From Rhodoferax sp. (lineage in GTDB: Bacteria > Pseudomonadota > Gammaproteobacteria > Burkholderiales > Burkholderiaceae_C), in the NCBI RefSeq assembly GCF_028688795.1, contig NZ_JAQTXM010000001.1, forward strand, positions 248,001-312,000: a stretch of DNA of 64,000 nt, given 5' to 3'. The notes beneath the pieces are model-generated. The model searched no databases. It was not told where the DNA came from and worked only from the letters and a program-made list of their open reading frames with translations. Each line of letters starts with the position of its first letter. Position 1 is the stretch's first letter. Of this stretch, positions 1 to 61,420 are shown one piece after another. The position numbers were made by a program, and so were the translations under genes.

Positions 1-2004
1 GCTGCTTTGTGAGCTGAAGTTTTTCAATTGCATTGACACACCCGACAGGTCGAACGCGACCGGCTTGGGGGCTGCGGCGTCTGTGTAGCCAAACGCACCG
101 TTGGTCACACTCACATCCTGGATGGCGACCAGCCAGGGTTTGGGAGGCAGACCGGGGGCGACTTTGGCGGTAGCCTTGGCCGCGTCTTGGACGGCACTTT
201 GGGATGGGACCCGATCCGTGTGTGGGCCGCCCTTCAAATCTGGCTCGGAGCTGACTTTTGAGTTGGTTTTGAGCCAGTCTTCAAACATCCAGCGACCATT
301 CGACTGGCGCGCCAGCGTTGCTTTTGGCTGCGTCACACGCACTTGACCGAGCGTGACGGTTTGGCCCGTCAGATCTACCGTTGCGTCTCGCAGCTGCACC
401 TGCCGGACGCTGGCCAACAGCGCTTTGCCAGCAGCCTTGGTTGTTTTAGATGGGGCCGAGGAAAGTTCAAGCTTGTCCAGCGACAGGCTTGGCACCTGAA
501 GCATCAGCTGCATGGGCTCTTGGGGCGACCGCGCGGCTTGCCAGGTCAGACCCAACTCGGCACTCAACAGGCCACTCAGCCCGGGCACCAGTACATCAGC
601 CAGATAAGGCGCCGCCAGATTCAGGGGCGCATCGGTGAGTTTCGCCGTGGCACTGGCGGTCTGGTCGGTGGCCGTTCCCTTAAATGACAAGGCTGCCGTG
701 TCGAGCAGGGCACTGCCCTCGAACGGCACACGCTGCGTGACTGGCCACTGCAGCGCCTGGGCCGACAAATCCAGCGCGCGAAGCGCCAAGCGAGCAGGCG
801 CAAGCGTGGTGTGATCTTTCCAGCTCAATTCACCGCCCTGCACGTTGACCTGCGCCACCGCCACGGTCCATGGCGATAAATTTTGATCATTTAGGCCTGT
901 AGACCTTTTAGATAATGCGCTAGTAGCTATATTATCAGGAGCAATTTTTTTGACTGCGTTAGGCGTCGTAAACAATGCCTGCCAATCAAGCACACCTTGA
1001 GCATTGCGCTGCAAGGCGATCTGCGGCTTGAGCCAGTCCACGCGCCCCAACTGCACGTTGCGCGTCAGCGGGCGCACATCGGTGAGCTGCACACTCAAGC
1101 GCTCAAAAGCCATCAAATCCTGCGCTGGTGCTGTCTTTTGGGCTGGTGCCACCAGCTTGACCTGGCTGGCCGTCACCAGCCCGCTCAAGACCACCGAGGT
1201 CTGCTGGGCCTGCTCGAATGCCAACTTCAGGTCTGCGTTGAGCACCGCCGAGGTCAGCCGCACCGGCAAACTGGCGGGTTGGTAGGCCAGGTAAGGCGCG
1301 AGGTCAAGGCTCTTGAGTTTGAAGTTGGCTTCGGTCTTCTGGTTGTCAGCAAACGGTGTGCTCTGAGCGCTAGAGTCAAACCGGCTGCCATTGAATTCAA
1401 AAGCCAGCTGCGGCTGCACCTGCACGTCACGTTTGGCGTCCAGGTTGCTCAAAAACGGCAGTTTGACGGTCAAACCAGTCAGCCGATGCACTTGGCCCAC
1501 TGCCGCATCGTCCAGCGTGACCTCACCCTGTGCCAACACCAGGTTGTAGAGCGCAAAACCAAGGGGTGTGGCAGTGGGTTCGCTTGGGGACTGGTGCAAA
1601 CGCGCCAGCACATCGTCCACGTCGTAATGCCCAGCGCCCAAATGCTTCAGCCGCAGTTGCGGCGCGTCAATTTGAATCGCATCCGCCACAGGCGCCAGCC
1701 TGAAAAGCGATTGCGCTTCCATATCTATATAGAGGTGCTTGATGGCGAACTGTGGGCTGGGGTTGGCCGCGTCCGCATGGGCCACGACAAAGTCATCAAC
1801 CGCCAGCTCAAGTGACCAAGGTTTGAAGTCGACGCGCCCAATAGTCACCTGGCGCCCAAGTTGCCCGGACAGTCGTGTTTCAAGCTGGCTTTTCAGCAAG
1901 GGTGGCAGTGCCAGCCATGACAACAGCCACAGCAACAACAAGCCACCAATCGCCATACCCAGCCGGCGCACCCCCTTGGTTTGGATCAAAGCATCTGATT
2001 TCAT
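1..2004 (-). CDS. DUF748 (AsmA-like) family protein, C-terminus beyond window
   Basis: This long minus-strand frame is absent from the ORF track because its stop lies outside the window. The ATG at 2004 opens a protein starting MKSDALIQTKGVRRLG, followed by a Leu-rich membrane segment at about residues 17-33. The next stretch, with 'LSGQLGRQVTIGRVDF', is typical of AsmA/DUF748 proteins, which are long beta-rich, inner-membrane-anchored periplasmic proteins linked to envelope lipid handling. The frame stays open to base 1, where it reads 'PVAFDLSGVSMQLKNF', again DUF748-like. At least 668 residues are present. A palindromic repeat at 892-942 is translated as 'IATSALSKRSTGL' and looks like an insertion. 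Exact function is unknown. Family assignment is fairly sure; role is inference. Confidence 0.85.
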   Translation of the reverse strand, partial: MKSDALIQTKGVRRLGMAIGGLLLLWLLSWLALPPLLKSQLETRLSGQLGRQVTIGRVDFKPWSLELAVDDFVVAHADAANPSPQFAIKHLYIDMEAQSLFRLAPVADAIQIDAPQLRLKHLGAGHYDVDDVLARLHQSPSEPTATPLGFALYNLVLAQGEVTLDDAAVGQVHRLTGLTVKLPFLSNLDAKRDVQVQPQLAFEFNGSRFDSSAQSTPFADNQKTEANFKLKSLDLAPYLAYQPASLPVRLTSAVLNADLKLAFEQAQQTSVVLSGLVTASQVKLVAPAQKTAPAQDLMAFERLSVQLTDVRPLTRNVQLGRVDWLKPQIALQRNAQGVLDWQALFTTPNAVKKIAPDNIATSALSKRSTGLNDQNLSPWTVAVAQVNVQGGELSWKDHTTLAPARLALRALDLSAQALQWPVTQRVPFEGSALLDTAALSFKGTATDQTASATAKLTDAPLNLAAPYLADVLVPGLSGLLSAELGLTWQAARSPQEPMQLMLQVPSLSLDKLELSSAPSKTTKAAGKALLASVRQVQLRDATVDLTGQTVTLGQVRVTQPKATLARQSNGRWMFEDWLKTNSKVSSEPDLKGGPHTDRVPSQSAVQDAAKATAKVAPGLPPKPWLVAIQDVSVTNGAFGYTDAAAPKPVAFDLSGVSMQLKNFSSQSS
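892..942 (+). repeat. Dispersed palindromic repeat, copy 1 (inside DUF748 gene)
   Basis: The right half reads GCGCTAGTAGCTAT, then seven bases, then GGAGC, matching the shared layout of the family. The left half is degenerate (TAGGCCTGTAGACC). It is translated in the host gene at about residues 354-371. Confidence 0.7.
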
Positions 2005-3180: not shown

Positions 3181-3326
3181 CGCACCGCACGCGACTGGCG
3201 ATAGGCAGCGCCCTGAAAAGGGGTGTGCTGCTGAAGTGGGAACACCACGGGGGAGCGTGCCGCAAAGCCCATTGCGGTTTTGTGATCAGCCGTTCGCCTG
3301 GGCACCTTAACCCACGTCTTTAAGGA
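3181..3326 (+). promoter_or_regulatory. ZTP riboswitch (pfl motif) controlling glyA
   Basis: The leader carries the conserved parts of the ZTP/pfl aptamer in order: GCGACTGGCG, GAAGTGGGAACACCAC, GGGGGAGCG, and the 3' core CCGTTCGCCTGGGCA. The known ligand is ZTP/ZMP (AICAR phosphates), which accumulate when 10-formyl-tetrahydrofolate is short. Control of glyA in one-carbon metabolism is a standard context. Directly 3' of the core, CCTTAA (3305-3310) can pair with TTAAGG (3320-3325), which contains the ribosome binding site. A translational expression platform is therefore likely. The aptamer call is strong; the switching mechanism is inferred. Confidence 0.92.
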
Positions 3327-14069: not shown

Positions 14070-14120
14070 TAGCTGCCTAGCCCTTATATAATAAGCGCAG
14101 GCAGCTATTTTTTTTATAGC
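14070..14120 (+). repeat. Dispersed palindromic repeat, copy 2 (intergenic, best conserved)
   Basis: Outer arms TAGCTGCCT and AGGCAGCTA are perfect complements. Inner arms GCCCTTAT and ATAAGCGC differ at one base. The tail AGCTAT, seven bases, ATAGC follows. This copy lies between the tyrB terminator and the DUF2520 gene and best shows the ancestral structure. Confidence 0.85.
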
Positions 14121-23164: not shown

Positions 23165-23213
23165 GTTATATATTTGATAGCTGCTCACGCTTATTCTGCA
23201 TGGGCTAGGAGCA
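23165..23213 (-). repeat. Dispersed palindromic repeat, copy 3 (spans meaB stop codon)
   Basis: Read on the minus strand: CTCCTAGCCC, core, ATAAGCGTGAGCAGCTAT, seven bases, then ATAAC. The TAA stop of meaB and its last seven codons lie inside the element. Confidence 0.75.
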
Positions 23214-24210
23214 TATTTCGTGCTGCAGTAGAGGCTGCTACCCGGCCTTCCAGCACGTCTTGGGTCAGCTTGGGCAACAGGTTCTTGACGGCAGGGTGCT
23301 GGGCAAATGCCAGTTTCAAACCGGCATCAATGCGTTCCCACATCCACGACAAGGCCTGCTTTTGACGGCGCGAGGAAAATTTGCCGCTACCCATTTGCAA
23401 CGCCTTGAATTCAAGCACCTTGGCCCAGAACGTGTCAACGCCCTGAGCGCGCAGTGCGCTGAGTTGCATCACTTGTGGATGCCAGATTTTTTCGTCATGG
23501 TGCATGTGATCAGGGTTACCGTGCAGACCAAGCAAGCGCAAGCTTGATGAAATCTGAGCCCGTGCGCGGGTGGCGGCATCGGGGTCAATGTCGGCCTTGT
23601 TGATAACAACCAGGTCGGCAAGCTCCATCACACCTTTTTTGATGGCCTGCAGATCGTCCCCGGCGTTGGGCAACTGCATAAGCACAAACATGTCGGTCAT
23701 ATTGGCCACCGCCGTCTCGCTTTGGCCCACACCTACGGTTTCCACAATCACCACGTCATAACCTGCCGCCTCACACACCAGCATGACTTCGCGGGTTTTC
23801 TCCGCCACACCACCCAGCGTGCCGCTGCTCGGGCTGGGCCGGATGTAGGCGTTTTCATGCACCGACAGCAATTCCATGCGGGTTTTGTCACCCAGAATCG
23901 AACCGCCTGAGACCGTGCTGCTGGGGTCAACTGCCAACACGGCCACACGGTGGCCCTGCGCAATCAGGTACAAACCCAAGGCCTCAATGAAGGTGGATTT
24001 GCCCACACCCGGGACACCACTGATGCCCAACCGAAATGACTTTCCGGTGTGAGGCAGCAACGCCGTCAACAACTCATCCGCCTGCTCCCGGTGGTCGGCA
24101 CGGGTAGATTCAAGCAGCGTGATGGCTTTTGCGACGGCGCGGCGCTGACGCAGTCCGTTGCCCCGCGTGATGTCTTCCAAAGCTGCGCCATGTAACTGTG
24201 ACGTGACCAT
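23191..24210 (-). CDS. meaB: Methylmalonyl-CoA mutase-associated GTPase MeaB
   Basis: This 339-residue G3E-type GTPase (older name ArgK) has Walker A 'GISGVPGVGKSTFIEALG', 'AVDPSSTVSGGSILGDKTRM', 'VETVGVGQSE' and 'VINKADID'. MeaB protects and reloads the B12-dependent mutase by gating cofactor delivery. It lies 28 bases after the mutase gene. The C-terminus 'NMLLAHAE' is encoded by the repeat element covering the stop codon, so the native end may originally have been different. Confidence 0.94.
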   Translation of the reverse strand: MVTSQLHGAALEDITRGNGLRQRRAVAKAITLLESTRADHREQADELLTALLPHTGKSFRLGISGVPGVGKSTFIEALGLYLIAQGHRVAVLAVDPSSTVSGGSILGDKTRMELLSVHENAYIRPSPSSGTLGGVAEKTREVMLVCEAAGYDVVIVETVGVGQSETAVANMTDMFVLMQLPNAGDDLQAIKKGVMELADLVVINKADIDPDAATRARAQISSSLRLLGLHGNPDHMHHDEKIWHPQVMQLSALRAQGVDTFWAKVLEFKALQMGSGKFSSRRQKQALSWMWERIDAGLKLAFAQHPAVKNLLPKLTQDVLEGRVAASTAARNMLLAHAE

Positions 24211-40060: not shown

Positions 40061-41737
40061 TCAGGCCCGAAACTTGTTGGTTATAGGATAACGCCAATCT
40101 TTGCCAAAGCTGCGATGCGTCACGCGAATCCCCACGGGGGACTGGCGCCGCTTGTATTCATTGATCTTGATCAGCCAGGTGACACGCTCCACATCGGCAG
40201 GCGCAAAGCCAGCGGCGATGATTTGTTCAATACTTTCATCGTTTTCCATGTAGCGCTCCAAAATGGCATCCAGCACCTCATAAGGTGGCAGGCTGTCCTG
40301 ATCCACCTGGTCGGGGCGCAATTCTGCGCTTGGCGGGCGGGTGATGATGCGCTCTGGAATCGGTGCCTGCCCGGTGCCATACGGGTCATGCGCGTTGCGC
40401 CAGCGCGCCAGGCGAAACACCGTGGTTTTGGCCAGATCCTTGATCACCGCAAAGCCACCCGCCATGTCGCCATAAAGTGTGCAGTAGCCGGTGGCCATTT
40501 CAGACTTGTTGCCCGTGGTCAGCACAATGCTGCCAAACTTATTGGAAAGCGCCATGAGCAACGTGCCACGAACGCGCGCCTGGATGTTTTCTTCGGTGGT
40601 GTCTTCTGCCAGGCCCTTGAATTCACCGGCGAGCGTGGCTTTGAACGCCTCAAACTCGGGCACGATCGACAACTCGTCGTAGCGTACACCCACCCGAGCG
40701 GCCATGTCACGGGCGTCAATCCAGCTGATGTCAGCCGTATAGGGAGACGGCATCATCACCGTGCGCACCCTGTCTTTGCCTAAAGCGTCCACGGCAATGG
40801 CCAACACCAGCGCCGAGTCAATGCCACCCGACAAACCCAGCAGCACGCCAGGAAAGCCATTTTTGTTGATGTAATCACGCACCCCCAACACCAAGGCGTC
40901 CCACAGGTCAGCATCTGGCGAGCGATCTGGCGCAATAGGTGCTACTAAAAAAATAGCTTTCAGCGCTTTATTTACCTGGACTAGAAGGCTATTTTCTATA
41001 AAACTCGGGGCTCGCCCGGCCAGTGTGCCATCGGCGTTAAGCGCAAACGAATGGCCTTCAAACACCACCTCATCCTGCCCGCCCACCAGATGCGCATAGA
41101 CCAGCGGCAACCCGCAGGCCAGCACCCGTTCACGCATCATCTGCTCGCGCTCATTGCCTTTGCCCACGTGAAACGGCGACGCGTTAATCACCGCCAGCAG
41201 CTCAGCGCCAGCCTGCGCGGTTTCCTGCGCCGGCGCTTCAAACCATGCGTCTTCGCAAATCAGCAAGCCAACCTTGACACGGGCGCCCTGTTTGCCCGCC
41301 TCAAAAACACACACACAATGACCGGGCGTGAAATAGCGGCGCTCGTCAAACACCTGATAGTTTGGTAGTTCACGCTTGGCGTAAGTGGCCACCACCTGCC
41401 CTTCACACAGCACACTGGCTGCATTAAAGCGGCTTTGCACCGCCACCGAGCGGGTACGATGGTCGCCACCCGTGGGGTGACCCACCACCACGCAAAGGTC
41501 TTTGAGGTCGGCCAAGGCAAGCCGCACGGCGTTCACGGCATCATCGCAGGCCGCCATGAAGGCGGCGCGCAAAAACAAGTCTTCGGCGGCATAACCACAA
41601 ATGGACAACTCAGGCGTCAAGACCAAACGGGCACCTTCCTGATAAGCGTTGCGCGCGGCCAAAATGATTTTTTGCGCGTTGCCCGCCAGGTCACCCACCA
41701 CCAGATTGAGTTGCGCCACGCAGATTTTTAGTGTCAT
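40061..41737 (-). CDS. nadE: Glutamine-dependent NAD+ synthetase
   Basis: The track frame extends to 42151, but the real start is the ATG at 41737 (MTLKICVAQLNLVVGDL). The N-terminal nitrilase-type glutaminase (about residues 1-250) has the triad in 'TPELSICGY' (Glu), 'YAKRELPNYQVF' (Lys) and 'LLICEDAWF' (Cys). The C-terminal synthetase has the PP-loop 'GLSGGIDSALVLAIA'. It amidates nicotinate adenine dinucleotide. The linker between the two domains is encoded by a repeat copy ('ENSLLVQVNKALKAIFLVA'). It has 558 residues. Confidence 0.95.
   Translation of the reverse strand: MTLKICVAQLNLVVGDLAGNAQKIILAARNAYQEGARLVLTPELSICGYAAEDLFLRAAFMAACDDAVNAVRLALADLKDLCVVVGHPTGGDHRTRSVAVQSRFNAASVLCEGQVVATYAKRELPNYQVFDERRYFTPGHCVCVFEAGKQGARVKVGLLICEDAWFEAPAQETAQAGAELLAVINASPFHVGKGNEREQMMRERVLACGLPLVYAHLVGGQDEVVFEGHSFALNADGTLAGRAPSFIENSLLVQVNKALKAIFLVAPIAPDRSPDADLWDALVLGVRDYINKNGFPGVLLGLSGGIDSALVLAIAVDALGKDRVRTVMMPSPYTADISWIDARDMAARVGVRYDELSIVPEFEAFKATLAGEFKGLAEDTTEENIQARVRGTLLMALSNKFGSIVLTTGNKSEMATGYCTLYGDMAGGFAVIKDLAKTTVFRLARWRNAHDPYGTGQAPIPERIITRPPSAELRPDQVDQDSLPPYEVLDAILERYMENDESIEQIIAAGFAPADVERVTWLIKINEYKRRQSPVGIRVTHRSFGKDWRYPITNKFRA
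40941..40991 (-). repeat. Dispersed palindromic repeat, copy 4 (inside nadE)
   Basis: Minus strand: TAGCCTTCTAG, core, AAAGCGCTGAAAGCTAT, seven bases, GTAGC. It lies in the interdomain linker at about residues 249-266 and is read in the same frame as copy 12 in the permease. Confidence 0.8.
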
Positions 41738-41755
41738 AAAAGCGATTGAAAAAAC

Positions 41756-42970
41756 ATGGGAAACAACACGCCCCCCGAGGCAAATGATTATGTCATTCGG
41801 GTGATGAACTCGCCGCAACAAGTCGATGCAGACCAATGGGACGCACTGCTTTTTGCCCAAGCAGATGCCACGCCGTTCATGCAGCACGCTTACCTGAGTG
41901 CGCTGCACACCAGCGCTTGCGCCACACCGCATACCGGCTGGTCGCCCCGGTTTATGTTGCTCGAACACCAAGGCCAGTTGGTGGCAGCCTGCGCGCTGTA
42001 CCTCAAGACCCATTCGCGTGGCGAATACGTGTTTGACTTTGGCTGGGCCAATGCCTACGAGCAACACGGCTTGGCCTATTACCCGAAAGCGGTGGTGGCG
42101 GTGCCGTTCACACCGGTACCAGGCGCCCGGCTGCTGGCACGCAACGCCCAAGACCGTGGGCTGCTAGCCCAAGGGCTCATCGAATGGTGCGATGCCCAAG
42201 GCGTGTCGGGCCTGCATTGTCTGTTTGCCAGCGCGGATGATCTGCAAGCCTGCCAGACCGCTGGCATGATGCAACGCCATACGGTGCAATTTCACTGGGA
42301 AAACAGCCTCAGCGGCTATGCTGACTTTGACGGCTTTCTGGCGTCCCTTGCCGCAGACAAGCGCAAGAAAATCCGTCAAGAACGGCGCAAGGTGCTTGAC
42401 GCGGGTGTAAGCTTTCGCCATGCCCAAGGCCGGGACATCAGCGCGTCAGACTGGGATTTCTTCTACCGTTGTTATGAACGCACCTACCTTGAGCATGGCA
42501 ACGCACCCTACCTGAACCGGGCCTTTTTCGCCGCCATGGCAACACACATGCCCGACGACTGGCTGCTGTTCACCGCCGAGCGCGCGGGCCAGCCCATTGC
42601 TACGAGTCTGATAGCTATTAATGCAAGCTGCACAAAGGCTACGGGCCAAAAAGACTATGAATCGTTGGTGCGCGTGGCGTATGGCCGCTATTGGGGCGCC
42701 CTTGAACGGGTGGACTGCCTGCACTTCGAGGCCTGCTATTACCAGCCGCTGGCGTGGTGCATTGCCAATGGCTACACACGCTTTGAAGGCGGCGCGCAGG
42801 GCGAACACAAATTGGCGCGCGCCCTGCTGCCGGTCAAAACCACCAGCGCGCATTGGCTGGCGCACCCCGCTTTTGCCAACGCCGTAAATGATTTTTTAAA
42901 CGCCGAAGGACAAGGCGTGGCGCAGTATTTGGACGAACTCAAAAGCCACAGTCCGTTCAAATCTGTCTGA
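41756..42970 (+). CDS. FemAB-like GNAT-fold acyltransferase (PF04339 type)
   Basis: This 404-residue protein belongs to the family often labelled peptidoglycan-biosynthesis or GNAT protein. Markers are 'SPRFMLLEHQGQLVAACALYLKTHSRGEYVFDFGWANAYE', 'LAADKRKKIRQERRKVLDAGV', 'ERTYLEHGNAPYLNRAFF' and 'YGRYWGALERVDCLHFEACYYQPLAWCIANG'. Family members resemble Fem aminoacyl transferases, but the substrate is unproven. A repeat copy inserts 'LIAINASCTKATGQK' just before the YGRYWG motif. It is divergent from nadE with an 18-base gap. Confidence 0.85.
   Translation: MGNNTPPEANDYVIRVMNSPQQVDADQWDALLFAQADATPFMQHAYLSALHTSACATPHTGWSPRFMLLEHQGQLVAACALYLKTHSRGEYVFDFGWANAYEQHGLAYYPKAVVAVPFTPVPGARLLARNAQDRGLLAQGLIEWCDAQGVSGLHCLFASADDLQACQTAGMMQRHTVQFHWENSLSGYADFDGFLASLAADKRKKIRQERRKVLDAGVSFRHAQGRDISASDWDFFYRCYERTYLEHGNAPYLNRAFFAAMATHMPDDWLLFTAERAGQPIATSLIAINASCTKATGQKDYESLVRVAYGRYWGALERVDCLHFEACYYQPLAWCIANGYTRFEGGAQGEHKLARALLPVKTTSAHWLAHPAFANAVNDFLNAEGQGVAQYLDELKSHSPFKSV
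42599..42648 (-). repeat. Dispersed palindromic repeat, copy 5 (inside femAB-like gene)
   Basis: Minus strand: TGGCCCGTAGCC, core, GCATTAATAGCTAT, seven bases, GTAGC. The terminal AGCTAT-N7-GTAGC signature is exact. It is translated as part of the host at residues ~281-297. Confidence 0.75.
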
Positions 42971-43933: not shown

Positions 43934-43983
43934 GCTATGTATTAAATAGCTACTTACGCAATCAGCGTAAGCGCTAGAAGCTC
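43934..43983 (-). repeat. Dispersed palindromic repeat, copy 6 (intergenic)
   Basis: Minus strand: AGCTTCTAGCGCTTACGC, core, GCGTAAGTAGCTAT, seven bases, ATAGC. It sits between the FAH-family gene and ppa. Confidence 0.8.
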
Positions 43984-46934: not shown

Positions 46935-48095
46935 ATGACTGAACGAGACACCCACCGCGTGATTCCCCTGATGGACCACCGCCCGCGCGGCTTGGTGGTG
47001 CCCACCGCGGCCTTTCATCCGGACACGCGCCTGACCGCCAGCGGGCTGATGGCCGACACCCGCGGCCGGGCTCTGCGTGACCTGCGCATCAGCGTCACCG
47101 ACCGTTGCAACTTTCGCTGCAACTACTGCATGCCCAAAGAGATTTTTGACAAAGACTACGCCTACCTCAAACACACGGACCTGCTGACGTTTGAAGAAAT
47201 CACCCGCATGGCGCGCGTGTTTGTGGCGCACGGCGTGGAAAAAATTCGCCTCACCGGAGGGGAGCCGCTGCTGCGCAAAAACCTGGAGCAATTGATTGAA
47301 CAGCTGGCGGAGTTGCGCACCCCCACAGGCAAGCCGCTCGACATCACCCTGACCACCAACGGCTCACTGCTGGCGCGCAAAGCCCAAAGCCTGAAGGACG
47401 CAGGCCTGCAGCGTGTCACCGTGAGCCTGGATGGGCTTGACGATGCGGTGTTTCGCAGCATGAACGATGTCGATTTTCCGGTGGCTGACGTGTTGGATGG
47501 CATCGAAGCCGCGCGCGCTGCGGGCTTGGGGCCGATCAAGATCAACATGGTGGTCAAGCGCGGCACCAATGAGCAAGAAATTTTGCCGATGGCGCGCCAT
47601 TTCAAGGGCAGCGGCATCGTGCTGCGCTTCATTGAGTACATGGACGTGGGTGCCACCAACGGCTGGCGCATGAACGAAGTCATGCCCTCGGCAGAAGTAG
47701 TGCAACTCATCAAGTCGGAGTTGCCACTGGTGCAACTTGAGCCATCCAACCTGGGTGAAACCGCCGAGCGCTGGGGCTACGCCGATGCCTTGGGCCAGCA
47801 TGACAAAGCGGCCGGTGAAATTGGCGTGATCAGCAGCGTGACACAAGCTTTTTGCGGTGACTGCAACCGCGCCCGCCTGTCCACCGAAGGCCAGCTGTAC
47901 CTGTGCCTGTTTGCAGAAAAAGGCTATGACCTGCGCAGCCTGATTCGCGGCCAGGCCTCAGACGCCGATTTGCAAAGCGCCGTGGCCCACATCTGGCAAG
48001 GCCGCAGCGACAACTATTCCGAGCAACGCAGCAGCATGCCTGCCGACCAAGGTGCCCCGGTGAAACGGGTTGAAATGAGTTACATCGGAGGCTAG
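46935..48095 (+). CDS. moaA: GTP 3',8-cyclase, molybdenum cofactor synthesis
   Basis: This 386-residue radical SAM enzyme has the first 4Fe-4S motif in '[12 protein letters not shown]' (CxxxCxxC), the GGE motif '[12 protein letters not shown]', and the second cluster in '[23 protein letters not shown]'. It ends in the Gly-Gly tail needed for activity. It converts GTP to 3',8-cyclo-7,8-dihydro-GTP. The N-terminal ~38 residues before '[20 protein letters not shown]' are an extension, so a start at a later Met is possible. It is first of the moaA-mobA-moeA run. Confidence 0.95.
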
Positions 48096-48169: not shown

Positions 48170-48802
48170 ATGATTCATCCTACTGACATCACGGCCTTGA
48201 TCTTGGCCGGCGGGCGCGGCTCACGCATGGGCGGCGTCGACAAGGGCCTGCAAACCTTTAACGGCATGCCACTGGCGCTGCACACCCTCACCCGTCTGCA
48301 AATGGGCGGCGGCGTGGGCGAGATCATGATCAATGCCAACCGCAACCTGGCGGCTTACGAATCGTTTGGTGTGGCGGTCTGGCCCGATGGGCTGGCCGAC
48401 TATGCCGGGCCACTGGCCGGCTTTTTGACCGGACTGGAGCGCTGCGAAACCCCCTACATGCTCACCGTGCCATGCGACACGCCGCTGCTGCCACTTGACT
48501 TGGCGCAGCGTCTGGCGGCAGCACTTGAAGCGGAAGATGCCGACATCGCCATGGTCGCCGCGCCCGAGGCGGGCAAAGATGGCCACATGCAGGTGCGCAC
48601 CCAACCCGTGTTTTGCCTGCTGCGTGTCGAGTTGCTGGAAAGCCTGGTGCGCTTCACACAAGACGGTGGCCGGAAAATTGATGCCTGGACCGCGTTGCAT
48701 AAAACCGCCGTGGTGCCGTTTGACCAAGCGGGCGACGACCGCCAAGCGTTTTTTAACGCCAACACCCTGGCTGAGCTGCACCAACTGGAATCCAACGCCT
48801 GA
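48170..48802 (+). CDS. mobA: Molybdenum cofactor guanylyltransferase
   Basis: This 210-residue nucleotidyltransferase has the N-terminal GTP-binding loop '[19 protein letters not shown]' and '[16 protein letters not shown]', which match MobA. It adds GMP to molybdopterin to form the guanine dinucleotide cofactor used by DMSO-reductase-family enzymes such as nitrate reductase or formate dehydrogenase. Its stop overlaps the moeA start by 1 base (TGATG). Confidence 0.94.
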
Positions 48803-50223
48803 TGAAAACCCTGGAGCAAATCGCCAGTGAGCTGGCGGGCTACGACCCGCAAGCCTTGAGCGCCGACATGGTCAACGACTTTTTGACCAAGCTCGTCGAG
48901 CCCGTGACCGATACCGAAGAGCTGGGCATTTTTGACACGCTTGGCCGCGTGCTGGCGTCGGATGTCATCAGCCCGGTCAGCGTGCCGCCACACGACAACT
49001 CGGCGATGGACGGCTACGCCTTTGATGGCGCGCAACTCTCAATCAACACCCCACTGAACCTGAAAGTGATCGGCACAGCGCTTGCCGGAAAAGCCTGGAG
49101 CGGTACCGCGTTGCCAGGCGAGTGCGTCAAAATCATGACCGGAGCCATCATGCCCATGGGCCTGAACACGGTGGCACCGCAAGAGTTGACGACCATGGCG
49201 GGTGACCTGGTCACCATTGCAGCCAACATGCTGCAGCCCGGTGACAACCGCCGCCATCTGGGCGAAGACCTCATGCAAGGCCAACCGGCACTACAAAAAG
49301 GCGAGCTACTCACGCCCGCTGCACTTGGACTGGTAGCCAGTTTGGGCATTAAATCCGTACCCGTCTTGCGCCGCCTGAAAGTGGCCTATTTTTCCACCGG
49401 TGACGAAATCTTGAGCCTGGGCGAGCCGCCGCGTGAAGGTGCGGTGTATGACAGCAACCGCTACACCGTGTTTGGCCTGCTGACCCGGTTGGGCTGCCAG
49501 GTGATTGACATGGGCGTGGTGCGTGACCAGCCCGAGGCGCTGGAAGCCGCGTTTGTGCAGGCTGCCTTGCAAGCCGACGCCATCATCACCAGTGGCGGGG
49601 TGAGCGTGGGCGAGGCAGACTTCACCAAAGCCATGATGAAAAAACTCGGCGACGTTGCGTTTTGGCGCATTGCCATGCGCCCCGGACGCCCCATGGCCGT
49701 GGGCCACATTTCAAGAGACAAATTGGCTTCTAGCCCTTATAAAACAAGCGCAATAAGCTATTTAAATAGTAGCATAGCAACAAACCAGCCAACCAGCTGC
49801 ACCAATGCCAACGAATCAAACACCGCATCAGCTGCTGCTTCGGTTGCGGCTGACGGGGCAACATCTGGCAACGCTGTGTTATTTGGATTGCCCGGCAACC
49901 CGGTGGCGGTGATGGTGACGTTTCTGGCCTTTGTGCGCCCGGCCCTGCTGCGCATGATGGGTGCAACCACCAGCGCTCCACCCCTGCTCAAAGCCAAAAG
50001 CATTGAGCCCATCCGCAAGAAACCCGGCCGCACCGAATACCAGCGTGGCATCGTCAGCACCGCAGCAGATGGCTCGCTGCAAGTCCAAACCACCGGCAAC
50101 CAGGGCTCAGGCGTGCTCAGCTCCATGGTGCGCGCCAATGGCCTGATCGTGCTGCACCACGGGCAAGGCAACGTGGCCCCCGGTGGCGAGGTGGATGTGA
50201 TTATGTTTGACGGGGTGATTTGA
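48802..50223 (+). CDS. moeA: Molybdopterin molybdenumtransferase, with an internal insertion
   Basis: This 473-residue protein inserts molybdate into adenylylated molybdopterin. 'VPPHDNSAMDGYAFDG' marks the start of domain MoeA-N, 'YFSTGDEILSLGEPPREGAVYDSNRY' the MogA-like domain, and 'LFGLPGNPVAVMVTFLAFVRPALLRMMG' the core end. The normally contiguous 'GRPMAVG...LFGLPGNP' region is split by about 50 extra Ser/Ala/Thr/Asn-rich residues (~304-356), which begin with a dispersed repeat. The remaining domain order is intact, so the protein is probably active. Confidence 0.93.
   Translation: MKTLEQIASELAGYDPQALSADMVNDFLTKLVEPVTDTEELGIFDTLGRVLASDVISPVSVPPHDNSAMDGYAFDGAQLSINTPLNLKVIGTALAGKAWSGTALPGECVKIMTGAIMPMGLNTVAPQELTTMAGDLVTIAANMLQPGDNRRHLGEDLMQGQPALQKGELLTPAALGLVASLGIKSVPVLRRLKVAYFSTGDEILSLGEPPREGAVYDSNRYTVFGLLTRLGCQVIDMGVVRDQPEALEAAFVQAALQADAIITSGGVSVGEADFTKAMMKKLGDVAFWRIAMRPGRPMAVGHISRDKLASSPYKTSAISYLNSSIATNQPTSCTNANESNTASAAASVAADGATSGNAVLFGLPGNPVAVMVTFLAFVRPALLRMMGATTSAPPLLKAKSIEPIRKKPGRTEYQRGIVSTAADGSLQVQTTGNQGSGVLSSMVRANGLIVLHHGQGNVAPGGEVDVIMFDGVI
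49724..49773 (+). repeat. Dispersed palindromic repeat, copy 7 (inside moeA)
   Basis: TGGCTTCTAGCCCTTAT, core, ACAAGCGCAATAAGCTAT, seven bases, GTAGC. Here it is read in a different frame ('KLASSPYKTSAISYLNSS') from most other copies and marks the start of a longer insertion in MoeA. Confidence 0.85.
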
Positions 50224-53144: not shown

Positions 53145-54365
53145 ATGCCAGAAACCACATCAAACGCCACCCCCACCAACATGCCGTCGGGCGTGATCGT
53201 GTTGTTGCTGTCCCTATTGCTGGGCCTGCAACCCGTCACCACCGACCTGTATCTACCCGCCCTGCCCATCATCACCAGCGGTTTTGCGGCCCCCATGGCA
53301 CAGGCGCAGTTGACCCTGACCGCGCTACTGCTGGCGTTTGGCGTGTCGCAACTGGCGTGGGGGCCGCTGTCTGACCGGTTTGGCAGGCGCCCCATTTTGC
53401 TGATTGGCCTGACTGCCTATGTGCTGGCGGCCATTGGCAGCACCCTGGCCTCAAGCATGCTGGCGCTCATTGTTTGGCGCGCTGTGCAGGGCGTGGCCAT
53501 GGGCGCAGCGGTGATGTGCGCGCGCGCCATCGTGCGAGACCTGTATGCCCCCACCCAAGGCGCCAGGGTCATGAGCAAGGGTTTGAGTGGCCTGGGTGTG
53601 ATTGCATTTTTAAGCGCACCCATCGGCGGGCTGCTGACCGATGCCTTCAGCTGGCGCGCAGCCCTGCTGGCGCTGGCCGTGTTTGGCGCCATCACACTGG
53701 GGCTTATCGCCTGGCGATTTGAGGAAACCCTGCAGCGCAAAAACCCAAACGCACTGCAGGGCGCCACCTTGCTGGCCACCTGGAAAAGCATTCTGTGCAA
53801 CCCGACGTTTCTGGCGTTCTCAGCCCTTTCAGCGGCGTCTTACGGCGGACTGTTCACCTTTTTGGCAGCGTCTTCGTTTGTCTTCATGAACGTGCTGGGC
53901 TTGAGCAAAACGCAATACGGCTGGCTGATGGCGCTTAACTCGCTGGCTTACATCGGCGGCACCTTTTTGTGCCGGCACTGGCTGCCGCGCTTTGGCGTGC
54001 GCCGCAGCTTGAAATGGGCCGGTGCGTTATCTTTGAGCGGTGGCACGCTGATGGCGCTGCCCAGCCTGATGGGCGTGCAAAGCATATGGGCCATCATGCC
54101 CGCGCAGCTTCTGTTCGTCATCGGCCATGGCATTCACCAGCCCTGTGGCCAGAGCGGCGCGGTCGGCCCGTTTCCGCATGCGGCGGGTGCGGCGTCTGCC
54201 GTGAATGGCTTTTTGATGATGTTGGCGGCCTTTGCCATGGGCAGCTGGCTGGGTGGGCACATGGATGGCTCGGTGCGGCCGCTCACGCTGGGGGTCTGGT
54301 TTTGGAGCGCAATGATTGCGCTGACCGCCTGGACACTGGTGCAGAAATATGGGGAACCCAAATAA
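53145..54365 (+). CDS. MFS drug-resistance transporter, Bcr/CflA type
   Basis: The ATG at 53145 ([16 protein letters not shown]) is preferred over the track start at 53079, which runs into the pseudogene region. The 406-residue protein has 12 predicted membrane segments. '[17 protein letters not shown]' and '[20 protein letters not shown]' are the typical first helix and motif A of the DHA1 Bcr/CflA group of proton-driven exporters. Substrates are unknown. The stop overlaps the miaA start (TAATG), so the two are coupled. Confidence 0.9.
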
Positions 54366-55486
54366 TGGAAGCCGGAGTTCCATCACATGCCGCCCTGCCC
54401 CGCTACCTGGCCATCGTCGGCCCCACGGCATCTGGCAAAACTGCCGCCGCTATGGCGATAGCACAGGCCTGGCCGGTCGAGATCATCAGCGTCGACTCAG
54501 CCCTGGTTTACCGCGACATGGACATTGGCACGGCCAAGCCCACGGCGGCTGAACTGGCCGCCGTGCCGCACCACCTGATCAACATCCGCGACCCACTGCA
54601 CGCCTACAGCGCGGCTGAATTTGCCACCGATGCGCGCCGTTTGATGGCAGACATCACCGCACGCGGCAAGCTGCCGCTGCTGGTGGGCGGCACCATGCTT
54701 TACCTCAAAGCGCTGCGTGACGGGCTGGACGACATGCCGCACGCCGAACCGGCCATTCGCGCCGAGTTGCAGCTTCAGGCCGAGCGCATGGGCTGGCCCG
54801 CCCTGCATGCCGAACTGGCGCAGGTTGACCCCATCACCGCCGCACGTCTGGCCCCGGCGGACTCGCAGCGCATCTCCCGCGCGCTAGAGGTGTACCGCGC
54901 CACCGGCCAGCCGCTGTCATCCTTTCATACAGCAAAAAACATAGCTACTGACGCAACATCCACGGGGGCTACAGCCCAAATAGTTATAAATTCTTCAACA
55001 TCGTTGGCAAACGCATTTACTGCTTCTGATTCAATAGCTACTCACGCAACATCTATAAGGGCTACAGGTCAAAAAAGCTTAAGCAATGCAGACAGCCTGC
55101 TGATTTCATTGGAGCCACTGGACCGCGCCTGGCTGCACCAGCGCATTGCCCAGCGTTTTGACGCCATGCTGGCCGTTGGCTTTCTGGACGAGGTCAAGGC
55201 CCTGCGCGCGCGCGGCGACCTGCACCCCGATTTACCGTCGATGCGCTGCGTGGGCTACCGCCAGGCTTGGGAATACCTTGACGCGCTTGACACACCCGGC
55301 CCAACCAGCCCAAGCGCCTTGAACGACTTGCGCGACAAAGGCATCGCCGCCACGCGCCAACTGGCCAAACGCCAAATCACCTGGCTGCGCTCAACGCCAG
55401 ATCGGCAAGTGGTGGCGTGCGACGCACCCGATGCGTTGGAACATGCGCTCAAACTGGTTAAAGAATTTTTGGACGACCCAGCATGA
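54365..55486 (+). CDS. miaA: tRNA dimethylallyltransferase with an internal insertion
   Basis: This 373-residue enzyme adds the dimethylallyl group to A37 of tRNAs reading UNN codons. '[18 protein letters not shown]' is the P-loop, '[20 protein letters not shown]' and '[19 protein letters not shown]' are core motifs, and '[14 protein letters not shown]' follows later. Usual members have about 310-320 residues. The excess lies mostly at residues ~188-240, where two repeat copies encode '[13 protein letters not shown]' and '[13 protein letters not shown]' in the same frame. The rest looks intact, so the enzyme is probably functional. Confidence 0.94.
54930..54977 (-). repeat. Dispersed palindromic repeat, copy 8 (inside miaA, first)
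   Basis: Minus strand: GGGCTGTAGCCCCCGTGG, core, TTGCGTCAGTAGCTAT, then a degenerate GCTG-type end. Confidence 0.75.
55022..55070 (-). repeat. Dispersed palindromic repeat, copy 9 (inside miaA, second)
   Basis: Minus strand: GACCTGTAGCCCTTATAG, core, TTGCGTGAGTAGCTAT, seven bases, GAAGC. It is very similar to copy 8, only about 44 bases away, and is read in the same frame. Confidence 0.8.
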
Positions 55487-56208: not shown

Positions 56209-57966
56209 ATGCAAGTTCTGATTGATTTTTGCAACCCACACGCCACCGATGCCGCCTTGCGCTGCGCCTTTGATGCGCCGCTGCAAGTTCTGGTAGCGCA
56301 CACACACGCACAGGTCAAACCCGTGCTTGACGCGGTCGATGCCCTGAGCCAACAAGGCCTGTGGTGCGTGGGTTATGTGCGTTATGAAGCGGCCCCGGCG
56401 TTTGATGCGGCATTTGCCGTGCATGACACTGATGGCCCGCTGGTCTGGTTTGGCGTCTACGCCCAGCCTTTGCCCTGGCCTGAGGACGACACAAGCCACG
56501 ATGCAGACACCCGAGCGCAGTGGCACAGCACCCTGAGCCGCGCTGACTTTGACACCCACATGGCCCAAATTCACCAAGCCATTGCGGCGGGTGAGTTTTA
56601 CCAGGTCAACTTCACCGCAGCCCTGCACGGCGCGTTCACGGGTGAACCCTTGACGCTGTTCAACCGCCTGCAGCGCGCCCAGCCCAACGGCTACGCGGCC
56701 TTTATGGACACTGGTTTTGAGCAGGTGCTGTCAGTGTCGCCCGAGCTGTTTTTTGACTGGCAGCCCGGGCCCACAGGCCAAAGCGGTCGCATCCTGACGC
56801 GCCCCATGAAAGGCACCGCGCCGCGCGGCAACACCAGCGCAGAAGACGACGCCTTGGTCAAAGCGCTGTTGGCGTCGCCCAAGGAGCGGGCCGAGAACGT
56901 GATGATCGTCGACCTGCTGCGCAACGATGTGTCGCGTATCGCCGAACCTTTTTCTGTGCAAGTGCCCTCGCTGTTCACGGTGCAAACCCTGCCGACGGTG
57001 TTTCAAATGGTGTCCGACGTGACCGCCCGCACCCGGCCCGGCACCAGCTTGACCGACGTGTTTGCCGCGCTGTTCCCGTGTGGCTCCATCACCGGTGCGC
57101 CCAAAGTGCAGGCCATGCACGCCATCAAAACGCTCGAAATCCAAGCGCGCGGTATTTACTGCGGTGCCATTGGCGTGGTGCGCCCGGGTGGGCACGCCAC
57201 CTTTAACGTCGCCATTCGCACCGTCACTTTGCGCGGCAATGCAGCCAGCTGCGGCATTGGCAGCGGCATCACCTTTGACGCCACAGCGCAAGCCGAATGG
57301 CAAGAGTGGCAGCACAAACGCGGCTTTCTGGACCGCGCCAGCGAGGCGTTTGAGTTGCTGGAAACGCTGCGTCTGGAAAACGGTGTTTATATTAATTTAA
57401 TAGTGCATCTCGCACGTTTATCTAGGGCTGCAAGGCATTTTGGCTATGTATTTGATGAAGTCTGTGTGCGGAAGCCGCTGGACGCGCTGACTGCAGAGGC
57501 ACTGGCTGCACCCACCACCGCTTGGCGCGTGCGTCTGCTGCTGAATGCCAATGGCGAGCCTCACGTTGAAAAATTTATATTAAATCAGCCTATAGCCCCC
57601 GTTAATATTGCGCTGGCAGCTACACATTTTGAAGAAGCACACAGCGAATTTACCCGCTTCAAAACCACCCGCCGTGCGCACTACGAAGCCTTTGCCCCGA
57701 CCGACCCCAGCGTGTTCGACACCCTGCTCTACAACGCCGCCGGTGAATTGACCGAATGCACCCGCGGCAACATCGCCCTGCTGCTGGACGGTCGCTGGGT
57801 GACACCGCCCTTGCACTGCGGGTTGCTGGACGGCGTCGGGCGTGAGATGTGTTTGAAAGAAGGCCGCCTGGTTGAGGCCGTGGTGCGCGTGGCGGACTTG
57901 CCACGTGTGCAGGCGCTGGCGTTTGTGAACAGCTTGCGCGGCTGGCTGGATGCGCGGCTGGTTTGA
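56209..57966 (+). CDS. pabB: Aminodeoxychorismate synthase component I fused to a class IV aminotransferase-like domain
   Basis: This 585-residue protein has residues 1-~380 as the chorismate-binding component I ('GEFYQVNFTAALHGAF', 'HPMKGTAPRG'-like 'TRPMKGTAPRGNTSAEDDAL', 'VDLLRNDVSRIAEPFSVQVP', 'CGSITGAPKVQAMHAIKTLE'). Residues ~385-585 resemble aminodeoxychorismate lyase ('LLYNAAGELTECTRGNIALLLDGRWVTPPLHCGLLDGVGRE'). One chain would thus make p-aminobenzoate from aminodeoxychorismate, for folate. Two AT-rich stretches at 57388-57437 and 57586-57638 resemble the dispersed repeat. Confidence 0.92.
   Translation: MQVLIDFCNPHATDAALRCAFDAPLQVLVAHTHAQVKPVLDAVDALSQQGLWCVGYVRYEAAPAFDAAFAVHDTDGPLVWFGVYAQPLPWPEDDTSHDADTRAQWHSTLSRADFDTHMAQIHQAIAAGEFYQVNFTAALHGAFTGEPLTLFNRLQRAQPNGYAAFMDTGFEQVLSVSPELFFDWQPGPTGQSGRILTRPMKGTAPRGNTSAEDDALVKALLASPKERAENVMIVDLLRNDVSRIAEPFSVQVPSLFTVQTLPTVFQMVSDVTARTRPGTSLTDVFAALFPCGSITGAPKVQAMHAIKTLEIQARGIYCGAIGVVRPGGHATFNVAIRTVTLRGNAASCGIGSGITFDATAQAEWQEWQHKRGFLDRASEAFELLETLRLENGVYINLIVHLARLSRAARHFGYVFDEVCVRKPLDALTAEALAAPTTAWRVRLLLNANGEPHVEKFILNQPIAPVNIALAATHFEEAHSEFTRFKTTRRAHYEAFAPTDPSVFDTLLYNAAGELTECTRGNIALLLDGRWVTPPLHCGLLDGVGREMCLKEGRLVEAVVRVADLPRVQALAFVNSLRGWLDARLV
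57388..57437 (-). repeat. Possible dispersed palindromic repeat, copy 10 (inside pabB)
   Basis: Minus strand: TGCCTTGCAGCCCTAGATAA, core, then a weak right half. The encoded peptide could be native to PabB, so this is a degenerate or chance match. Confidence 0.4.
57586..57638 (+). repeat. Dispersed palindromic repeat, copy 11 (inside pabB)
   Basis: CAGCCTATAGCCCCCGTTAA, core, TTGCGCTGGCAGCTA, then a longer spacer and GAAGC. It is read as 'QPIAPVNIALAATHFEEA'. Confidence 0.6.
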
Positions 57967-58658: not shown

Positions 58659-58708
58659 CTTGATGCCTGTCCAGATTGGCACCCGACAGTCAGGACGGCC
58701 CCGACCCC

Positions 58709-61420
58709 ATGCTTGACCTCCTCAAAACCTTCTCGTGGCAAGAGTTGCGCCAGCACCCGTGGCGCAATGCCGCAGCGGTGGTGGCGGTCATGCTGGGCGT
58801 CGCATTGGCGTTTTCCGTGCACCTGATCAACGCCAGCGCGCTCGACGAATTTGCCCAGGCCACACGCGCCGTGTCGGGCCAGAGCGACCTTGAATTGCGC
58901 GCCGCACAAGGACAGTTTGACGAGGCCTTGTTTGGCCGGGTGGCCAAGCTGCCAGAGGTGGCGCAGGCCGCCCCAGTGCTTGAAGTGGGCAGCTACCTGC
59001 GCACTGCCAGCGGCAAGCAGTCGCTCAAAGTGGTGGGGGTGGATGCGCTGGCGGTGGCCCGCATGGCGCCAGACTTGATTCCGATACCGCGCCGGCCTGA
59101 CGTAAATGAAGACAAAAAGACAACACGCTTTGCCTTGTTTGCGCCGGGACAGGTGTTTCTTAACCCGGCGGCGCAACGCTTGTTGGCGGTCTTGGACACC
59201 GAGGCCCACGACAGCGCCGTGAGCCCCAAACCGGCAGCACAGACCCTGCAACTGCAAAGCGGCATGCAATGGCTCAATGTGAACGTGGCAGGCAGCGTGC
59301 GCGCCAGCGGCCCGGCATTGGGGGTAATGGACATTGGCGCAGCGCAGGAATTGTTTGGCAAACTGGGCCAGCTCAGCCGCATTGACTTAACGCTAAAACT
59401 CGGCGTGAACCGTGACGACTTCGCCCGCCGCCTGCAAGCGCTGCCCGATTGGCCCGCAGGTGTCACCGTGGCACAACCAAGTGATGCGCAGTCGCAAATC
59501 AACAATTTGTCGCAGGCCTACCGGGTCAACCTGACGGTGTTGGCGCTGATTGCCCTGTTCACCGGGGCGTTTTTGGTGTTTTCGGTGCTGGCGCTCAGCG
59601 TGGCCAAACGCGCGCAGCAATTTGCCCTGCTGGCAGTACTGGGTTTGAGTGGACGTGAGCGCCTGACGCTGGTGCTGTGGGAGTCTTTGGGCTTAGGGGT
59701 CGTGGGCAGCGTGTGCGGCCTGGCCTTGGGTGCCGGGCTGGCGGCGCTGGCCTTGAACGTACTGGGTGGTGACTTGGGCGGCGGCTTTTTTTCCGGGGCC
59801 GCGCCCCGCTTGCAGTTAGACGGCTGGGCTGCCGCCGGCTACGGCGTGCTGGGTGTAGCGGCCGCGCTGGCGGGTGGCTGGTGGCCAGCGCGCCAGGCCC
59901 AAGCCTTGCCGCCAGCGCAAACCCTCAAAGGTCTGGGGCATTCTGGCGCTGCTCACAGCCACTGGTTTAGTCTTTTTTTGATAGCTGCTGGCGCATTATT
60001 GACAAGGGTCCCAGCCGTATTTGGCATGCCAATAGCTGCATATGTGTCGGTCGCCTTTCTGTTGCTGGGTGGCATCACCGCCCTGCCCTGGCTGGTGGGC
60101 TTGCTGCTGGACCGCATCGCCCCGCTGGTGGCGCGCCAGACCTTGCCACTGCTGGCCGTGGCGCGCGCCCGGCACCAGCGTGAAACGGCTGCCGTGGCGG
60201 TGAGCGGTGTGGTGGCATCGCTCAGCCTGGCGGTGGCGCTCACGGTGATGGTGGCGAGTTTTCGCGAATCGGTCACGCAGTGGCTTAACGTGGTGCTACC
60301 GGCGGATCTGTATGTGCGCAGCAGCGGCAACCTGGGTGCGTCAGACACGGTGTTCTTCAGCCCGGAATTTGTCCGGGCCGCCGCCAAGTTGCCGGGAGTG
60401 ACGCGGCTGCAAGCGCAGCGCCAAGTGCCGCTGTTGTTAGAAGCGTCACTACCCGCCGTGGCGCTGCTGGCCCGCGAGCTCGACGACCCGGCACGCAACC
60501 TGCCCATGGTGGCGCCACCCTTGCCCGTGCCAAAGGGGCAAATTGGCATCTACGTGAGTGAAGCAGTAGTCGATTTGCACGGTGCTAGGGTGGGCCAGGC
60601 CTTTCCACAGATTTATAAGGCTTTTAGGCCTCTGGCCCTTATAAATGATGCGCAAGAAGCTACTTTTTATGTAGCAGGCGTGTGGCGTGATTACGCTCGC
60701 CAAAGCGGTGCGATTGCCATCAGCCGAGAAGATTTTCAGCGCCTCACCGGCGACCAGCGCGCCAATGACCTGGCGCTGTGGCTGGATGACCCGGCGCAGG
60801 CAGAGCAGGTGCAGCAGGCGCTGCGAACTCTGGCAACCTCCCAGTCGGGAAACACAGCAAATCAGGCCGCCTTGTCAGACCCAGCGACCCGCACTGAAAA
60901 GGCAAGCAAGCCTGACCTTTCAGGCCTGGCTGCTGGCTCTGGTGCGGGCGAGCTGCTCGAATTTGGCACGTCCGCCCAGATTCGCAGCACCTCGCTCAAG
61001 GTGTTTGACCGCAGCTTTGCCGTCACTTACTGGCTGCAGGCAGTGGCGGTGGCGATTGGCCTGTTTGGCGTGGCCGCCAGCTTCAGCGCGCAGGTGCTGG
61101 CACGGCGCAAAGAATTTGGCTTGCTGGTGCACCTGGGCCTGACCAAGCGGCAAATCTTGACGGTGGTGGCGCTCGAAGGCATGGCCTGGACCAGCCTGGG
61201 CGCGCTCGCCGGATTAGGGCTGGGCCTGGTGGTGTCAGGCGTGCTGGTGCATGTGGTGAACCCGCAAAGCTTTCACTGGACCATGGATTTGATGCTGCCC
61301 TGGCTCAAGCTGATCAGCCTGTGTCTGGCCGTGGTGGCTGCCGGCACGGTCACCGCCTGGCTGGCTGCCCGCGCGGCGGCTGGGCAAGATGCGGTGCTGG
61401 CAGTGAAGGAAGATTGGTGA
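58709..61420 (+). CDS. ABC transporter permease with two FtsX domains
   Basis: This 903-residue protein starts at MLDLLKTFSWQELRQHPWR (58709; the track uses a TTG upstream). One N-terminal helix, then a periplasmic domain, then FtsX-type helices ('NLTVLALIALFTGAFLVFSVLALSVAKR') and a second FtsX set at the C-terminus ('FGVAASFSAQVLARRKEFGLLVHLGLTKRQI'). It is of the LolC/MacB/YbbP-like kind that moves lipids, lipoproteins or drugs with the LolD-type ATPase at 55483. Two repeat copies are translated within it, near residues 420-436 and 639-656. Confidence 0.9.
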   Translation: MLDLLKTFSWQELRQHPWRNAAAVVAVMLGVALAFSVHLINASALDEFAQATRAVSGQSDLELRAAQGQFDEALFGRVAKLPEVAQAAPVLEVGSYLRTASGKQSLKVVGVDALAVARMAPDLIPIPRRPDVNEDKKTTRFALFAPGQVFLNPAAQRLLAVLDTEAHDSAVSPKPAAQTLQLQSGMQWLNVNVAGSVRASGPALGVMDIGAAQELFGKLGQLSRIDLTLKLGVNRDDFARRLQALPDWPAGVTVAQPSDAQSQINNLSQAYRVNLTVLALIALFTGAFLVFSVLALSVAKRAQQFALLAVLGLSGRERLTLVLWESLGLGVVGSVCGLALGAGLAALALNVLGGDLGGGFFSGAAPRLQLDGWAAAGYGVLGVAAALAGGWWPARQAQALPPAQTLKGLGHSGAAHSHWFSLFLIAAGALLTRVPAVFGMPIAAYVSVAFLLLGGITALPWLVGLLLDRIAPLVARQTLPLLAVARARHQRETAAVAVSGVVASLSLAVALTVMVASFRESVTQWLNVVLPADLYVRSSGNLGASDTVFFSPEFVRAAAKLPGVTRLQAQRQVPLLLEASLPAVALLARELDDPARNLPMVAPPLPVPKGQIGIYVSEAVVDLHGARVGQAFPQIYKAFRPLALINDAQEATFYVAGVWRDYARQSGAIAISREDFQRLTGDQRANDLALWLDDPAQAEQVQQALRTLATSQSGNTANQAALSDPATRTEKASKPDLSGLAAGSGAGELLEFGTSAQIRSTSLKVFDRSFAVTYWLQAVAVAIGLFGVAASFSAQVLARRKEFGLLVHLGLTKRQILTVVALEGMAWTSLGALAGLGLGLVVSGVLVHVVNPQSFHWTMDLMLPWLKLISLCLAVVAAGTVTAWLAARAAAGQDAVLAVKEDW
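59969..60016 (-). repeat. Dispersed palindromic repeat, copy 13 (inside permease gene)
   Basis: Minus strand: GGCTGGGACCCTTGTCAATA, then ATGCGCCAGCAGCTAT, seven bases, AGACT. It is read as 'LIAAGALLTRVPAVFG' inside a membrane segment, the same frame as copies 1, 5, 8 and 9. Confidence 0.65.
60625..60675 (+). repeat. Dispersed palindromic repeat, copy 12 (inside permease gene)
   Basis: TAGGCCTCTGGCCCTTAT, core, ATGCGCAAGAAGCTAC, seven bases, GTAGC. It is read as 'RPLALINDAQEATFYVA', the same frame as copy 4 in nadE. Confidence 0.85.

Follow-up and report, generated by a model that had tools for sequence, protein, structure and literature searches.

The window, a stretch of 64,000 nucleotides from the genome of a Rhodoferax species, contains the gene for the molybdopterin molybdotransferase MoeA (48802-50223, + strand; 473 residues), which follows moaA (46935-48095) and a mobA-like gene (48170-48802). 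Pfam and NCBIfam matches identify the reading frame as a complete MoeA (PF03453/PF00994/PF03454; NCBIfam MoeA equivalog), in which the MoeA_N, MoCF_biosynth and MoeA_C domains and the MoeA fold are all present. The linker connecting its GRPMAVG and LFGLPGNP motifs comprises 61 residues, compared with only nine (AVGRIGNAV) in uninterrupted relatives. The excess of 52 codons, or 156 nt, has the same length as the interval 49715-49870 (+ strand) marked in a first-pass annotation. It maps to residue 291 of the Escherichia coli protein, at the tip of a domain III hairpin, between GKLSN and NSWFCGLPGNP.

This first-pass annotation of the DNA had proposed that a repeat was inserted in frame between the two motifs and that a repeat copy forms the start of the insert. 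Both proposals were borne out, the former by the length of the linker and the latter by a match to the repeat profile at 49720-49773 (+ strand; nhmmer, 55 bits, E 4e-16 in 64 kb), when no match of at least 15 bits was obtained in an 864-kb Markov control. This copy (family consensus AATTGGCCTCTAGCCCTTATAAAATAAGCGCAAGCAGCTATTAAATATATAGC; the copy itself is translated as KLASSPYKTSAISYLNSS) is also recognized by an extended covariance model (CM), whose match spans positions 49709-49784 (76.5 bits, E 4e-18 in the genome). The G+C content is 36% in the repeat part of the insert, 55% in the remaining tail and 60% in the moeA gene.

The tail (49774-49870, + strand) is a low-complexity segment rich in alanine, serine, asparagine and threonine, which lacks repeat homology and is unique in the genome. 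Two origins had been considered for it, an older, decayed repeat and an expansion following insertion. The first, together with the related idea that the tail is a copy of another genomic repeat, was rejected, because the repeat profile did not hit segment 49774-49871, even with the E-value limit at 1000, and the best match of the segment in the rest of the genome reached only E 0.23. In a relative (L063), moreover, a tail of equal length has an unrelated sequence. By exclusion, the tail thus looks like a lineage-specific low-complexity expansion, so that the second proposal stands in part, as the best reading.

In the AlphaFold2 model, obtained with a 61-sequence alignment, residues 313-354 have pLDDT values below 50 and are flanked by strands at residues 297-304 and 357-363. 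Elsewhere, the model recovers the MoeA fold (1g8l, E 9e-45), and its mean pLDDT of 78.8 lets the disorder of the insert stand as a prediction. The 52-residue insert is therefore probably a floppy segment of a surface loop. Pooled pN/pS values are 0.62-0.87 for the repeat-derived codons and 0.22-0.27 for the flanks (Nei-Gojobori proportions, calculated from non-independent pairs), which suggests that the insert evolves under little protein-level constraint and is tolerated rather than functional. Conceivably, the flexible loop could have been recruited for an interaction or a regulatory role and be held by selection, as its persistence over a large clade, its pN/pS below 1 and the recurrence of a KLASSP start might indicate. 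We consider such a role improbable, since the insert has roughly three times the pN/pS of its flanks, the inserts vary in length and have repeatedly suffered deletions within the clade, the tails of L031 and L063 are unrelated to each other, and the segment is predicted to be disordered. A recurrent KLASSP start would also be expected from the shared descent of the repeat.

A dispersed repeat between and within genes

The repeat is a dispersed, multicopy element of ~65-75 bp that is AT-rich (36% G+C). A census of non-overlapping copies scoring at least 15 bits in 864 kb of the window's genome (G000; L173-L212 and the window) yielded 145 copies, corresponding to 168 per Mb and, by extrapolation, to some 800 per genome; 57 of them are intergenic, 52 internal to open reading frames (ORFs) and 36 located at gene ends. 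A similar density (138 copies per Mb in 400 kb) was found in a second genome that consists of a single contig (G010). Within the genus, 17 of 37 genomes contain at least 49 matches to the repeat model and the remainder few or none, and the model had no matches in 24 order-level relatives, in a survey that scored no more than 79 matches per genome. Two short inverted repeats are conserved, with 88.9% of cells paired, as opposed to 26-48% when slid. Covariation is weak, being reached by 42 of 500 shuffles, and RNAalifold predicts only two pairs, which leaves an RNA role for the repeat unsupported. No Rfam family matches the position of the MoeA repeat; at a separate site in the window (3181-3310), there is a match to the ZMP/ZTP riboswitch (RF01750, 49 bits). 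In the openly readable literature, we found no published description of the repeat in Rhodoferax or Polaromonas.

The copies were assigned to genes by a longest-ORF heuristic, with 'internal' denoting copies separated by 60 nt or more from both ends of the ORF. This measure places ~60 copies per Mb inside ORFs over the 864 kb analyzed. The share of copies inside ORFs is 36%, compared with 77% expected under random placement; insertion into genes thus appears to be selected against, and most intragenic insertions have presumably been lost. In the 400 kb of G010, the internal share is lower (8/55), indicating that it varies by genome or region. Among the 52 internal copies, 23 are read in antisense phase 0, 17 in sense phase 0 and a single one, that of MoeA, in sense phase 1, so that the frame described as uncommon in the first-pass annotation is indeed exceptional. 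Openness of the frame alone is insufficient to account for this choice, because, among the intergenic copies, sense phase 1 is open more frequently (18/56) than sense phase 0 (10/56).

Nine of ten ORFs with an internal copy that were checked are conserved Pfam genes. The hosts include genes for a DNA polymerase III alpha-type protein, UvrC, PurK, Tex, NIF3 and an M1 peptidase, as well as, in the window, those for MoeA, NadE and MiaA. In the NadE ORF (40061-42151, - strand), a copy (40941-40994, - strand) lies at the boundary between the CN_hydrolase (glutaminase) and NAD_synthase domains. The MiaA ORF (53969-55486) contains two copies (54936-54979 and 55022-55072, - strand), read in an antisense frame. 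Both are held by an insertion of ~50 residues that is absent from order-level orthologues, and a shorter repeat-like segment occupies the same place in three MiaA proteins of the genus (L216, L221, L222). Additional copies are found in a PabB-PabC fusion ORF (56209-57966; copy at 57582-57633, + strand) and in an FtsX-like permease ORF (58676-61420), which carries one copy at 60625-60675 (+ strand) and a weaker one at 59973-60008 (- strand). At the 3' end of the MeaB gene (23191-24210, - strand), a copy (23167-23217, - strand) supplies the last residues and the stop codon, and intergenic copies are located at 892-942 (+ strand), 14077-14120 (+ strand) and 43934-43982 (- strand). Insertion relative to orthologues was demonstrated for MoeA and MiaA, and reading frames have been kept open in unrelated conserved genes. 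Repeat invasion is a genome-wide phenomenon that extends beyond MoeA.

History of the MoeA insert among relatives

Where the genomes are named, the relatives belong to Rhodoferax, Polaromonas and further genera of the Comamonadaceae. Inserts derived from the repeat lie at the same codons in two clades, one of Rhodoferax (21 rows, including a few deletion remnants) and one of Polaromonas (16 rows). Each of these clades forms one side of a branch, and a few other lineages carry such inserts as well. An uninterrupted nine-residue linker was found in 27 of the 83 MoeA sequences in the tree. Matches to order-level MoeA proteins break at residues ~304/356, and no distant MoeA was found to carry a repeat-free insert of equal length, or indeed any insert. 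The insert is old and common to a large clade and does not represent a recent private event. The window derives from a 98-contig assembly, which could have raised the suspicion of an assembly or frameshift artefact in a draft genome. However, this reading is already refuted, because corresponding inserts recur in numerous independent assemblies, among them those of isolates and a single-contig genome (G010; Rhodoferax antarcticus, L069). The presence of the insert goes along with abundance of the repeat, given that at least 49 matches to the repeat model were obtained in 12 of 14 genomes with a MoeA insert, as opposed to 1 of 15 genomes without it, in a comparison that ignores kinship. One genome (G022) has kept a drifted insert, yet contains only a single match to the model.

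Two histories could underlie this distribution. On the one hand, the repeat may have entered MoeA once, in the common ancestor of the Rhodoferax and Polaromonas lineages, and the insert may later have been subject to losses and to sequence conversion with the repeats resident in the individual genomes. Such a scenario agrees with the shared insertion site, the identical codon phase of the 30 best-matching inserts and the nearly equal length of the inserts in both clades (69-72 nt), and partial-deletion scars in five rows (L036, L073, L045, L114, L043) demonstrate that losses do happen. On the other hand, an AU test rejected a single insert-bearing clade (p=0.018, quick tree), although this value is optimistic, because the groups were picked after the first tree had been seen. 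The empty linkers, in addition, are exactly nine residues long and free of scars in all 27 rows. Finally, the inserts resemble the repeat subtype of their own lineage. All 16 Rhodoferax inserts compared were scored higher by the Rhodoferax model, and 14 of the 16 Polaromonas inserts by the Polaromonas model (the exceptions being L086 and L137). The bases of the MoeA inserts at family positions 26-27, mostly A in Rhodoferax (0.88) and G in Polaromonas (0.75-0.81), match the respective genome-wide families. For a single origin, conversion would have to be assumed in addition. The Polaromonas consensus used here was built from 400 kb of stretches and is unbiased; it replaced a consensus from loci fetched with a MoeA-derived query, which was biased, and it kept the lineage signal, albeit with smaller margins. 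We regard a single ancient insertion as less likely than not. The rejection in the AU test and the likeness of the inserts to their own lineage's subtype suggest, instead, that Rhodoferax and Polaromonas acquired their inserts in parallel, each from its own variant of the repeat.

The same loop has also received a second, unrelated repeat. This GC-rich element, which codes for RFAAGPPQGETAPSGGSEP, occurs in the MoeA proteins of Curvibacter delicatus (L080:3001-4362) and two Polaromonas strains (L092:3001-4497, L123:3001-4362) and is nearly identical between the two genera. In L092, two tandem copies are placed after the first, AT-rich repeat, and the sister rows of L080 (L088/L100/L119) have an empty loop. 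The arrival of an unrelated repeat points to the loop as a recurrent landing place.

Collectively, our results make it highly probable that the MoeA insert originated from a high-copy repeat of the Rhodoferax/Polaromonas type, which inserted in frame into a permissive hairpin, was kept, drifted and expanded at its tail, in a manner akin to the palindromic elements of Rickettsia. In this scheme, the ~65-75 bp element dispersed in these Comamonadaceae would have entered a surface hairpin of MoeA and been retained because its frame was open and the loop tolerated additional residues. The segment would then have drifted as a flexible stretch and, in the lineage of the window, gained a further ~28-32 low-complexity residues. 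The past mobility of the repeat, the origin of the tail and the preference for parallel insertion over a single insertion with losses or conversion are what we infer from the present-day sequences. The broader proposition, that mobile repeats have recurrently entered MoeA at this hairpin tip, with independent entries in the same frame in Rhodoferax and Polaromonas and a GC-rich repeat in two genera, and that several hundred in-frame repeat-coded segments exist proteome-wide, appears to us evenly balanced between true and false. Rhodoferax-type betaproteobacteria are taken to be free-living. The best-known cases of small repeats invading proteins in frame come from Rickettsia and Wolbachia, where weak selection in small, host-bound populations could account for them. 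If the proposition is true, a free-living bacterium would rank among the richest in repeat-coded protein segments, and ~60 ORF-internal copies per Mb, some of them in conserved core enzymes, would challenge the weak-selection account. The MoeA loop also offers a natural experiment, in which dozens of species show the loop without the insert, with it, with an expanded or deleted form of it, or with a second repeat beside it.

Mobilization and comparison with known repeat systems

RAYT genes (PF01797) are present in the window's genome and equally in repeat-poor relatives. RAYT was proposed as the mobilizer because a repeat copy abuts the RAYT stop codon, at a distance of no more than 6 bp, in four repeat-rich genomes (G000, G010, G013 and G021; loci L278, L281, L283 and L285). 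This proposal is weakened by RAYT genes that lack an adjoining repeat in 11 repeat-poor genomes and by another conserved motif, TGTGTCCCCAATT, which follows almost every RAYT gene examined and differs from the MoeA repeat. As no mobilizing enzyme, target-site duplication or fresh pair of empty and filled sites was found for it, the repeat family may be old and largely immobile. The REP elements associated with RAYT transposases comprise GTAG/CGTC families (PMC3733652). The repeat described here resembles them in forming small dispersed palindromes, some of them intragenic, in a genome with RAYT genes. However, inspection of its consensus by eye revealed no GTAG/CGTC tag at either stem foot, and the RAYT-neighboring motif is a different sequence.

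BRE elements, which measure ~90 bp at 69% G+C, are scattered over the genomes of Bordetella, Polaromonas, Rhodoferax and Delftia and have some wholly coding copies (PMC3110155). The AT-rich repeat of the window is shorter and far more abundant, whereas the GC-rich element in the MoeA loop may be a BRE, given its likeness in size and G+C content. Similar to the 107-bp Correia/NEMIS element of Neisseria and the ERIC and YAPL MITEs, which have been found fused to ORFs (PMC2229807), our repeat is a small, non-autonomous element with an open frame that is fused to genes. Nevertheless, it differs from these elements in taxon, size and sequence, and TA-ended terminal inverted repeats are not shown for the Rhodoferax repeat.

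A close parallel is provided by the Rickettsia palindromic elements (RPEs), palindromic repeats of 105-146 bp from obligate intracellular alphaproteobacteria, for which 44 integrations into genes have been reported in R. conorii (Ogata et al., 2000, 2002, as cited in PMC10969869 and PMC2229807). The likeness is one of kind. The Rhodoferax repeat is shorter and betaproteobacterial, and its ORF-internal copies number ~60 per Mb over the 864 kb sampled. Like RPEs and their Wolbachia analogues, it is a short palindromic repeat that occurs both between genes and in frame within unrelated conserved proteins, where it is tolerated by the host protein. By analogy, it probably acts as a non-autonomous element that spreads between and into genes and survives wherever the frame stays open. 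In-frame protein invasion itself is already known from RPEs, and the process described here resembles it in a betaproteobacterial lineage taken as free-living.
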